Positions 6,248 to 15,256 of a stretch of 44,970 bases of DNA are shown here, piece by piece. Below the pieces are notes generated by a model. That model had not been told where the DNA came from, did no database searches, and saw only the letters and a program-made list of their open reading frames with translations. The stretch comes from Sphingomonadaceae bacterium (lineage in GTDB: Bacteria; Pseudomonadota; Alphaproteobacteria; Sphingomonadales; Sphingomonadaceae): assembly GCA_016000085.1 (NCBI GenBank), contig JAECRT010000007.1, forward strand, positions 1 to 44,970, given 5' to 3'. Both the position numbers and the translations under genes were made by a program. Every line of letters starts with the position of its first letter. Position 1 is the stretch's first letter.

Positions 6248-6261
6248 TTGACCTGTGTCAA
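6248..6261 (-). promoter_or_regulatory. FNR/FixK-type box upstream of ccoN
   Basis: The palindrome TTGAC-CTGT-GTCAA matches TTGAY-N4-RTCAA, the half-site pattern bound by FNR/FixK/FnrL regulators. Its centre is about 64 bp upstream of the ccoN ATG. If it acts as a class II site centred near -41.5, transcription would begin about 23 bp before ccoN. Control of fixNOQP by FNR-family proteins is well established in alphaproteobacteria. The regulator gene is not in the window. Confidence 0.82.
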
Positions 6262-6450
6262 ACGGCGGTTCGGCGGTCTTTACGGGATAGTCCCTAGCCG
6301 GAAGCATTTGTAACAAATTGTTGCCAGAGCGCCCGGCTCTTGAAGCCATGCGTCCTTCCCACGATATGGAGGGAGCGGGCCGGGCCCCTCTGGCGGTTGG
6401 ATGCAGATCCAGCCGCGATGTCGGACCGCATCGAGTGTGCTCGGTGCAGG

Positions 6451-12664: not shown

Positions 12665-12700
12665 ACGGGCGGGCAATAGCGCATGATGGGAAATGAAGGC

Positions 12701-13531
12701 ATGAACAGGCGCGCGCTGCTGTCGGGCGGATTGGCAGGGGCGCTGACGCTGGGCGCGCCGTTGTGGGCGGCGGCGCCCTTTGCGTCGCGGCGGATCGCGG
12801 TGAATGTGCGCGGGACGGGGCGCGACGTGGTGTTGATTCCGGGGCTGGCCAGTGGTCCGGGCATCTGGAATGGGGTGTTGGCCGCGTTGCCGACCTATCG
12901 GTTTCACCTGATCCATGTGCGCGGCTTTGCCGGGTTGAGCGCGGATGCCAATGCCAGCGGGCCGTTGGTCCAGCCGGTCGCGGACGAAATCGCGCGCTAT
13001 GTCGGGGCGGCGAAGCTCTCGCGGCCTGCGATCGTGGGGCATAGCATGGGCGGCACATTGGCGATGCTGCTGGGCCTGAAGGCAGCGGCGAGCCGGATCA
13101 TGGTGGTCGACATGCTCCCCGCGGGGGCAGCCATGGTCGGCGGGACGGCGAGTGGTCTGGGCTTTCTGGCGGATCAACTGGGCGGCTATCTGACCGGTAC
13201 GCTCGCGGGGCGGCGCTATCTGGCCCAGATGGTGGCGCAAACGCCGGGGGCGAAGGGCAGTGATCCCGAAGTCATCGCCAACGCCCTGCGCGATCTGGCG
13301 AATATCGACCTTGGGCCGCAACTGCCGCGCCTCGCGGCACCGCTGGAGGTGGTCTATGCCGTCGGCGCGGATGCCGCGCAGGCGAGCGCGATTACCAGCC
13401 GTTTTCGTGCGGATTATGCAGGCAAGAAAGGTACGCTGCTCAAGGCGATCGGTCCCAGTGGCCATATGGTGATGGCCGATCAGCCGACGCGGTTCAACGC
13501 GGCGTTAGGGGATTTTCTCAAGGGTATTTGA
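12701..13531 (+). CDS. Alpha/beta hydrolase with Tat-like signal
   Basis: A 276-residue alpha/beta hydrolase. The N-terminus MNRRALLSGGLAGALTLGAP has a twin-arginine pair before a hydrophobic stretch, pointing to Tat export. The fold shows the oxyanion region VLIPGLASGPGIWNG, the nucleophile elbow GHSMGGT (Ser about 115) and a late histidine in GPSGHMVMADQP. The substrate is not predictable. An in-frame ATG pair at 12683 gives six more residues; 12701 is chosen because it places RR right at the signal start. The stop codon overlaps the FNR-type box at 13528-13541. Confidence 0.85.
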   Translation: MNRRALLSGGLAGALTLGAPLWAAAPFASRRIAVNVRGTGRDVVLIPGLASGPGIWNGVLAALPTYRFHLIHVRGFAGLSADANASGPLVQPVADEIARYVGAAKLSRPAIVGHSMGGTLAMLLGLKAAASRIMVVDMLPAGAAMVGGTASGLGFLADQLGGYLTGTLAGRRYLAQMVAQTPGAKGSDPEVIANALRDLANIDLGPQLPRLAAPLEVVYAVGADAAQASAITSRFRADYAGKKGTLLKAIGPSGHMVMADQPTRFNAALGDFLKGI

Positions 13532-13541
13532 CGCGGGTCAA
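13528..13541. promoter_or_regulatory. Second FNR/FixK-type box
   Basis: TTGAC-GCGG-GTCAA is a perfect palindrome with the same half-sites as the box before ccoN. It covers the stop codon of the alpha/beta hydrolase. The next protein-coding gene on the plus strand is about 5 kb away, so the box does not obviously serve a protein gene. It lies about 40 bp before a short stretch ending in a strong terminator. Confidence 0.55.
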
Positions 13542-13575
13542 AGCGGGCGTGGCGGGAACATGCGAACAGGATGAT

Positions 13576-13650
13576 CCCGGACGTGCTTTCAGCGCATCCC
13601 TCCTCTAGACTCAGGCGCGGCGCTGTATCCCAGCGACCGCGCCGCTTTTT
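13576..13650 (+). ncRNA. Candidate FNR-controlled small RNA with anti-SD motif
   Basis: If the box at 13528-13541 acts at -41.5, transcription would start near 13576 and give an RNA of about 75 nt. It contains the unpaired C-rich stretch ATCCCTCCTCTAGA (13606 region), complementary to GAGGAGGG ribosome sites, then the terminator at 13614-13649. C-rich anti-SD loops plus a terminator are typical of several alphaproteobacterial trans-acting sRNAs. I see no clear -10 element, and the stretch could simply be the 3' end of the hydrolase mRNA. Confidence 0.4.
13614..13649 (+). terminator. Strong rho-independent terminator
   Basis: GGCGCGGCGCTG (13614-13625) pairs with CAGCG-A-CCGCGCC (13631-13643) with one bulged A and a 5-base loop, followed by GCTTTTTG. 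The T-run exists only on the plus strand, so it ends plus-strand transcripts (the hydrolase, the candidate sRNA, or both) just before the nadB stop codon. Confidence 0.85.
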
Positions 13651-13651
13651 G

Positions 13652-15256
13652 TCAGGGCGACAGCACAGTGTCGATCGCGTCCGGCAGCATATCGAGATAA
13701 TCGAGCGTATAGTGCAGTCCGCGGCTTTCCTTGCGATGGAGCGCCGACCGGACGACCAGGCGCGCCACTTCGAGCAGGTTGCGCAATTCGATGAGGTCGG
13801 GCGTTACCCGGAAATTGCCGTAATAATCGTCGACTTCCCGCGCCAGCAGATCGATGCGGTGCTGGGCGCGTTCGAGCCGCTTGGTGGTGCGGACGATGCC
13901 CACATAGTCCCACATGAAGCGGCGGATTTCCTTCCAGTTATGCTGGACGATGACTTCCTCGTCGCCGTTGGTGACGCGGCTTTCATCCCATGGCCGGATC
14001 GGCGGGGGAAGCGGCAGACTGTCCCAGTGCGCGCGGATATGTTGCGCCGCTGCTTCGCCGAAGACGAAACATTCGAGCAGGCTGTTCGAGGCCAACCGGT
14101 TCGCGCCGTGCAGGCCGCTTTCGGTGACTTCGCCCGCCGCATACAGGCCGGGCAGGTCGGTGCGACCATCCAGATCGATGATGACGCCGCCGCAGGTATA
14201 ATGTTGTGCGGGGACGACCGGGATCGGCTCTTTCGTGATGTCGATGTCCAGATCGAGCAGCCGGGCATAGATGGTCGGGAAGTGATGCTTCACGAACTCG
14301 GGCTCTTTGTGGCTGATGTCGAGATGGACATAATCCAGGCCGAGCCGCTTGATTTCATGATCGATCGCGCGGGCCACGATGTCGCGTGGGGCCAGTTCCT
14401 CGCGCGGGTCGAAGCGGGGCATGAAGCGCTCGCCGCCGCCTGGCACGCCGGGGGGGAGTTTGAGATGGCCGCCTTCGCCGCGTACCGCTTCGGTAATCAG
14501 GAAATTCTTGACCTCCAGATTGTAGAGGCAGGTCGGGTGGAACTGGTTCATTTCCATGTTCGACACGCGGCAGCCCGCACGCCAAGCCATGGCGATGCCG
14601 TCGCCGGTCGCGCCGCGCGGGGCGGTGGAGAAGAGATAGGTACGGCCCGCGCCGCCGGTGCACAGGATCGTCGCGCGGCCAAGCAGCGCGTCGACATGCT
14701 TGGTTTTCTTGTTGAAGGCATAGACGCCCCAGACATGGCCGTCGCCCGAATAGCGCTCGCCATGGCGGCTGGTGATCAGGTCGAGCGCGACCATATCCTC
14801 GACCAGGGTGATATTGGGATTGGCGCGTGCGGCCTTGAGCAGGGCGACCTGCACCGCATGGCCGGTGGCGTCGTCGACATGGACGATGCGGCGGTGGCTA
14901 TGCCCGCCCTCGCGGGTCAGATGCCAGCGGTCGCCAAAATCCTCGCCTGCGTTGAACGGCACGCCCAGCGCGGCGAGGCGGTCGATGGCGGCGGGGGCTT
15001 CGGAGACAACGAATTCGACCGTGGCCCGATCGTTAAGACCAGCGCCCGCGACCATCGTGTCATCGACATGCGCCTGAAAACTGTCGCCTGCGTCGAGGAC
15101 GGCGGCAATGCCGCCCTGCGCCCAGTTGGTCGAGCCGCCGTCGAGCGCGCCCTTGGCCAGCACCACGACCTTGCGGTCCTGCGCCAGGTTGATGGCGGCC
15201 GTCAGCCCCGCCGCGCCGGAGCCGATGATGATGACGTCATGGGTGGTCGTGGGCAT
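13652..15256 (-). CDS. nadB: L-aspartate oxidase
   Basis: A 534-residue flavoprotein that oxidises L-aspartate to iminoaspartate, the first step of de novo NAD synthesis. The FAD-binding start is DVIIIGSGAAGLTAAINLAQ, followed by STNWAQGGIAAVLD, the His/Arg-rich substrate segment REGGHSHRRIVHVDD and the late FAD motif GLHGANRLASNSLLECFVFG. These and the length match NadB and not the succinate dehydrogenase flavoprotein, which shares the fold. nadA and nadC are not adjacent. About 30 bp separate its start from the upstream ABC ATPase stop, so the two may be co-transcribed. Confidence 0.95.
   Translation of the reverse strand: MPTTTHDVIIIGSGAAGLTAAINLAQDRKVVVLAKGALDGGSTNWAQGGIAAVLDAGDSFQAHVDDTMVAGAGLNDRATVEFVVSEAPAAIDRLAALGVPFNAGEDFGDRWHLTREGGHSHRRIVHVDDATGHAVQVALLKAARANPNITLVEDMVALDLITSRHGERYSGDGHVWGVYAFNKKTKHVDALLGRATILCTGGAGRTYLFSTAPRGATGDGIAMAWRAGCRVSNMEMNQFHPTCLYNLEVKNFLITEAVRGEGGHLKLPPGVPGGGERFMPRFDPREELAPRDIVARAIDHEIKRLGLDYVHLDISHKEPEFVKHHFPTIYARLLDLDIDITKEPIPVVPAQHYTCGGVIIDLDGRTDLPGLYAAGEVTESGLHGANRLASNSLLECFVFGEAAAQHIRAHWDSLPLPPPIRPWDESRVTNGDEEVIVQHNWKEIRRFMWDYVGIVRTTKRLERAQHRIDLLAREVDDYYGNFRVTPDLIELRNLLEVARLVVRSALHRKESRGLHYTLDYLDMLPDAIDTVLSP

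Follow-up and report, generated by a model that had tools for sequence, protein, structure and literature searches.

A putative FNR-activated small RNA with an alphaR8-like layout between a hydrolase gene and nadB in Sphingobium

In enterobacteria, the small RNA (sRNA) FnrS is activated by FNR, made anaerobically and represses genes that are dispensable under these conditions, as described in sections of a 2021 review that names FnrS and NarS as FNR-controlled (PMC8139620). The same sections present PcrZ of Rhodobacter sphaeroides as a low-oxygen-induced, FnrL-dependent sRNA which is directly controlled by PrrA and possibly only indirectly by FnrL (PMC8139620). In Caulobacter, SisA–D are siblings under separate promoters that carry an anti-SD 10-mer, and overexpressed SisA represses many targets, according to parts of the published account (PMC12559287). 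In the sphingomonad Sphingopyxis granuli TFA, the 61-nt SuhB is reported, in an excerpt of the relevant study, to repress thnR translation with Hfq (PMC6563040). A further excerpt on this strain gives its Fnr consensus as TTGAc/t-N4-g/aTCAA and locates the majority of the boxes in Fnr-regulated operons, including that of ccoN, at or close to −41.5 (PMC7713065). Finally, a passage of a 2026 review cites a 2021 study for ‘FnrS’ of S. granuli TFA, an sRNA belonging to the anaerobic response, and gives fnr as the target of this RNA (PMC13414033). In view of this citation, a sphingomonad sRNA linked to FNR is probably no longer novel, and the general idea is probably in print already; the passage also suggests, independently of our analysis, that sphingomonads make use of such RNAs. 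Among open-licence papers, we found no extension of ‘FnrS’ to Sphingobium and no tie to alphaR8.

Here we examined a stretch of 44,970 nucleotides from a Sphingobium assembly (the window). In it, an alpha/beta hydrolase-type gene (12683–13531, plus strand) and the convergent nadB gene for L-aspartate oxidase (13652–15256, minus strand), both taken from the list of open reading frames and the former bearing the product name given in the earlier note, enclose a short intergenic region. We consider it probable that this region encodes a trans-acting sRNA of ~75 nt (13576–13650, plus strand; start predicted, end at a T-run), which would be activated by FNR at low oxygen and act as an anti-SD-type repressor with an alphaR8-like layout. 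Comparison, as opposed to expression, gives good support to its designation as an FNR-controlled small RNA, while anti-SD action is plausible given the alphaR8-like layout and the CCUCC-type stretch left exposed.

The region has a perfect TTGAC-N4-GTCAA box (TTGACGCGGGTCAA; 13528–13541, unstranded, centre 13534.5), as the earlier note had reported, and the hydrolase stop codon (13531) indeed falls inside it. The likeness to ccoN also held: a pattern scan places a second exact box upstream of ccoN in the same window (6248–6261, unstranded; ccoN on the minus strand, named from the earlier note and from our reading of the protein). In total, the 3.23-Mb assembly (83% complete) contains three exact TTGACN4GTCAA sites, two of them in the window and the third on contig C18. 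A first-order Markov estimate predicts 0.016 such sites per 45-kb window and 1.15 per genome, so that, with three observed, the box alone is unremarkable genome-wide; the weight rests on its conserved place and not on the box itself. Adjoining the ccoN promoter region, Rfam identifies a terC RNA (RF03067, 63.6 bits) at 6372–6433, corresponding to the 5′ end of a gene that resembles a Bax-inhibitor-type membrane protein.

A nadB match was present in all 94 genomes of the genus, and the 3′ flanks of nadB from 92 other genomes (G063 has no usable flank) were combined with the window into a set of 93. The combination of a TTGAYN4RTCAA box with a C-rich stretch and a T-run behind it, referred to here as the full unit, occurs in 48 of these flanks and is absent from 45; 0.0005 boxes of this type are expected per 250-nt flank. 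The four central bases vary, with 26 different versions among the 48, and 37 of the 48 boxes lie 114–137 nt from the end of nadB. S. xenophagum is among the carriers. At E < 1e-7, a 161-base query aligned in 13 of the 94 genomes, the window's own included; the match sits between the hydrolase and nadB in all 13, covering only the first 49 bases in one (G068).

Between the window and nine close relatives, the box shows 87% identity, the 22 nt behind it (the spacer) 52% and the segment from the −10 to the start 40%. Identity rises to 71% in the hairpin and C-rich stretch and 76% in the terminator, the best kept part of the RNA, compared with 72% at the hydrolase end and 80% at the nadB end. By these values, conservation of the RNA roughly matches that of coding sequence and exceeds that of the spacer. 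That the RNA (71–76%) is no better kept than either gene end counts against an sRNA. According to the earlier note, a terminator kept without its box and C-rich stretch would speak against its proposal; an alignment upstream of the nadB 3′ end, which it had suggested, instead revealed conservation of the box, the C-rich stretch, a −10 at fixed distance and stem covariation.

Some loci depart from the common form. In one nadB flank (L099, from G082), the box is followed by an ORF of ~57 amino acids (MTAHISADSH start, likely membrane segment), possibly an FNR-driven small protein, and then by the C-rich stretch and terminator. Five other loci (L104, L105, L184, L189 and L190) form a subtype with a box of like kind and a longer RNA, in which an extra 5′ hairpin (CGACGATCCGCAGTCGTCG-like) precedes a CCCTCC stretch.

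Position +24 after the box is an A (1.81 bits) in 34 of 35 non-redundant boxed flanks, and a T precedes this position in 20 of the 35; the values for positions +13 to +22 are 0.05–0.42 bits. In the larger set of 48, which has five more flanks, includes L099, omits L100 and has no redundancy filter, A is found at +24 in 44 flanks and missing from 4, with TA in 27. If this base is the −11 A of a −10 element, transcription would start at 13576, with the box centred at −41.5. In the window, the element is a degenerate GAACAG (13564–13569, plus strand; conserved A at 13565), and the ccoN box has GAAGGG at the same distance. The earlier note had seen no clear −10. This remains true of the window strain, whose −10 is poor and has drifted, but not of its relatives, many of which have TAnnnn at exactly that distance; by comparison, their element implies a start near 13576, the position given in the note. 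A simple consensus scan reported neither a plus-strand promoter nor the terminator of the predicted sRNA. With a TTGAY-N4-RTCAA box near −41.5 of the putative start and a −10, the region has the arrangement of a class II FNR-activated promoter, and an FNR protein is encoded in the genome (G000:C41, L339). This protein has four N-terminal Cys, together with a C-X2-C-X7-C cluster and an ETVSR recognition helix, which we take to be marks of an Fnr-type protein.

Folding of positions 13576–13652 gave −33.6 kcal/mol (z −4.08), with none of 200 shuffles as stable. The fold consists of a 5′ hairpin (13579–13599), an open stretch and a Rho-independent terminator (13614–13650) whose stem (13614–13643) is followed by TTTTT (13646–13650), all on the plus strand; the earlier note had likewise read a strong terminator with its T-run on this strand. 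The C-rich stretch, CCCTCCTC (13598–13605, plus strand), is the proposed seed, and CTCCTC within it (13600–13605) is predicted to be unpaired, in line with the open stretch of the note. When homologues were tested for their most accessible CUCC or CCCC, this 4-mer was unpaired with a probability of at least 0.76 in 42 of 42 (mean 0.98 versus 0.46 for the whole RNA), a value that is favoured by the choice of the best 4-mer per RNA. No shared target by long perfect complement was found when GTGGAGGAGGGA was searched in 12 genomes (12-nt complement): 10 of its 15 matches are the antisense strand of the sRNA gene, and the other 5 are scattered over 4 genomes (G039, G045, G052 and G080).

Both the 5′ hairpin and the terminator stem show covariation. 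In a plain MAFFT alignment of 14 sequences, double changes occur in 4 of 18 pairs and 92.8% of cells pair. The real values were reached in 500 shuffles 47 times for the 4 pairs, 6 times for the pairing percentage, 11 times for the covariation score and 175 times for the pair types; with 47 and 175 shuffles reaching the first and last of these, covariation on this alignment is modest. When 46 sequences (41 distinct) were instead aligned by fitting to the model, an alignment that leans to the structure, 13 of 18 pairs had double changes, a number reached by 0 of 500 shuffles. Another alignment (A1), in which the 5′ hairpin was misplaced in shorter members, was kept out of the counts.

Since the hairpin lies directly behind the hydrolase gene, it might do no more than terminate the hydrolase mRNA, or a 3′UTR-derived RNA, and be accompanied by a chance box; about one exact box is expected genome-wide, and the terminator is the best kept part of the RNA. 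However, the flanks separate unit from gene. A tblastn match to the hydrolase was found in 69 of the 93, with unit and hydrolase together in 41, the unit (box, C-rich stretch and T-run) without hydrolase in 7, the hydrolase without the full unit in 28 and neither in 17, and the unit thus comes and goes independently of the hydrolase. Where the hydrolase occurs without the full unit, the gap to nadB is at most 82 nt in 20 of 26 measurable flanks; in one flank of this class (L082), the RNA is present with a one-mismatch box. The box half-sites and the −10 A are, moreover, retained around a fast-changing spacer. We therefore regard a simple terminator as unlikely.

The box is palindromic and could also direct transcription the other way, giving an RNA antisense to the hydrolase gene, and the promoter scan does give a minus-strand sigma-70-like site that uses it (13541–13512, 9/12). 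Conservation to the left of the box is uninformative here because that side is hydrolase coding sequence. Yet the box and the plus-strand unit persist in the seven flanks without hydrolase, and the conserved −10, C-rich stretch and terminator all lie on the plus strand, which renders the antisense alternative highly improbable. A true sRNA might instead be bound by another regulator of the CRP/FNR superfamily and not by oxygen-sensing FNR. TTGAY half-sites are common across this superfamily, and the genome has three HTH_Crp_2 matches over the cut-off besides the Fnr-type protein. Against this, the arrangement of the box is that of ccoN in the window, and it fits both the sphingomonad Fnr consensus, TTGAc/t-N4-g/aTCAA, and the −41.5 position given in the excerpt on TFA (PMC7713065); we consider control by a different regulator quite unlikely.

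The Rfam search proposed in the earlier note gave no match here at the gathering threshold, but at a permissive threshold RF00519 (suhB/mmgR, alphaR8) was the best of 4227 families and aligned end to end. The window copy scores 20.0 bits against RF00519, where membership takes at least 41, and 20 bits is noise level in the window's own genome. Of 40 loci scanned, 13 have RF00519 matches at E ≤ 10, none of which reaches 41, and 27 list none. The best scores are 38.3 (L046), 35.9 (L078), 33.8 (L207, from another genus), 33.6 (L043) and 32.1 bits (L083), with eight more loci at 20–26 bits; 20 unboxed control loci reach at most 22.6 bits.

An RF00519 match over the cut-off is present in 94 of 94 genomes of the genus, with 2–11 matches in each, and the window's genome has six canonical copies over the cut-off (C43:21624, C77:13342, C33:19441, C73:35614, C2:44631 and C73:43001). 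The 160 nt around the core were free of FNR boxes in all 35 canonical copies inspected. Several of the copies viewed (L114–L143 and the own genome) have a TTGCAA-rich block upstream. The predicted sRNA shares the alphaR8 layout of a weak 5′ hairpin, an unpaired C-rich stretch and a terminator; in place of the single-stranded 10-mer UUUCCUCCCU the window has AUCCCUCCUCU, and canonical Sphingobium copies also deviate from UUUCCUCCCU. On the basis of the RF00519 scores and the absence of the box from canonical copies, we describe the unit as alphaR8-like: probably related to alphaR8 (mmgR/SuhB), but not a member. Descent from alphaR8 is likely for the group of units and may extend to the window copy.

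A covariance model (R1), built from 14 sequences of the RNA alone with the box left out, gave matches at E ≤ 0.05 in 78 of 94 genomes. All 28 matches with E < 5e-7, the 14 training sequences among them, adjoin nadB. Of the matches elsewhere, the 28 better-scoring were fetched. A box lies near two of these weaker matches, 81 nt (G064, TTGACTCAGATCAA) and 97 nt (G050, TTGATTCAGGTCAA) upstream, and none was found near the other 26. Fourteen of the unboxed matches were rejected as sRNA copies: they all correspond to the 3′ end of a single conserved gene, which closes with ACCGGATGTAA (or TGA), and score up to 39 bits. Consequently, R1 matches below ~40 bits are no evidence alone, and those on canonical suhB loci (≤29.6 bits) were discarded as proof of kinship. 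Behind this gene, L163–L168, L170, L171, L174, L175, L178, L179, L182 and L202 have a C-rich stretch together with a strong terminator; this resembles the 3′ half of the sRNA and possibly gives rise to a 3′UTR-derived RNA.

Across the family, the pattern box-N23-A-CTCC-TTTTT was found in 16 of 397 genomes and its reversed control in none of 397; the pattern is strict, matching only 3 of the 11 own-genus genomes drawn. Units resembling the sRNA occur in 6 of 10 genomes of one genus (g37) and 4 of 9 of another (g96). With neighbouring genes named from reading of their proteins, the g37 copies inspected (L207, L208 and L210) adjoin an ABC-transporter ATPase gene, with a queA-like gene on the other side in L207 and L210, while those of g96 (L213 and L214) adjoin a hemN-like gene. 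One g96 unit (G426) is identical to that of Novosphingobium huizhouense (L257). Three genomes (G219, G228 and G247) gave single-genome matches to the family pattern. A scan of named genomes returned 111 stretches, with 10 from Sphingobium among the 80 listed. Eleven further alphaproteobacterial matches were, by eye, unlike the unit (low-GC or coding-looking), except for one from Acetobacteraceae (L246), which ends in a C-rich stretch and hairpin; the other listed matches belong to many different phyla and are apparently due to chance.

These comparisons suggest how the locus might work. As oxygen falls, FNR would bind the box at −41.5 and activate a class II promoter, whose position and −10 come from comparison. 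RNA polymerase would then make the 5′ hairpin, the exposed CCUCC-type stretch and the terminator. The exposed stretch may base-pair with selected mRNAs at their purine-rich ribosome-binding sites, probably with Hfq as the platform, and so lower their translation. Genes unwanted at low oxygen would in this way be silenced while FNR turns on ccoNOQP and others. By its layout, the predicted sRNA would be an alphaR8-type (mmgR/SuhB/Sis) sibling placed under FNR. More broadly, and with rather less than even confidence, we suggest that sphingomonads have repeatedly brought an alphaR8-like sRNA that masks ribosome sites under the direct control of FNR, each time at another locus (next to nadB in Sphingobium, an ABC-transporter gene in another genus and hemN in a genus that includes Novosphingobium), obtaining a low-oxygen silencer of their own from a family that is elsewhere associated with carbon storage and carbon starvation. 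If true, a conserved FNR-driven sRNA would provide FNR with a repressive arm in sphingomonads, which are pollutant-degrading bacteria, and its predicted promoter, seed and siblings make the proposal directly testable.

Among described systems, alphaR8 (MmgR of Sinorhizobium, SisA–D of Caulobacter and SuhB of Sphingopyxis TFA, the last placed there by its name and the Rfam family name) shares with the predicted sRNA the weak 5′ hairpin, the single-stranded C-rich anti-SD stretch and the terminator. In contrast to alphaR8, the predicted sRNA has an FNR box, is without UUUCCUCCCU and scores 20 bits against a cut-off of 41. Its likeness to enterobacterial FnrS is FNR activation, here predicted from the box; the Rfam FnrS family gave no match to the stretch in gathering or permissive scans. 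PcrZ is likewise an alphaproteobacterial low-oxygen sRNA, from which the predicted sRNA, compared in sequence by Rfam scan only, differs by its FNR box at −41.5. Finally, the ‘FnrS’ of Sphingopyxis granuli and the predicted sRNA, likened here by the description in the review passage alone, are both sphingomonad and linked to low oxygen, and the window unit may be the Sphingobium counterpart of that RNA.
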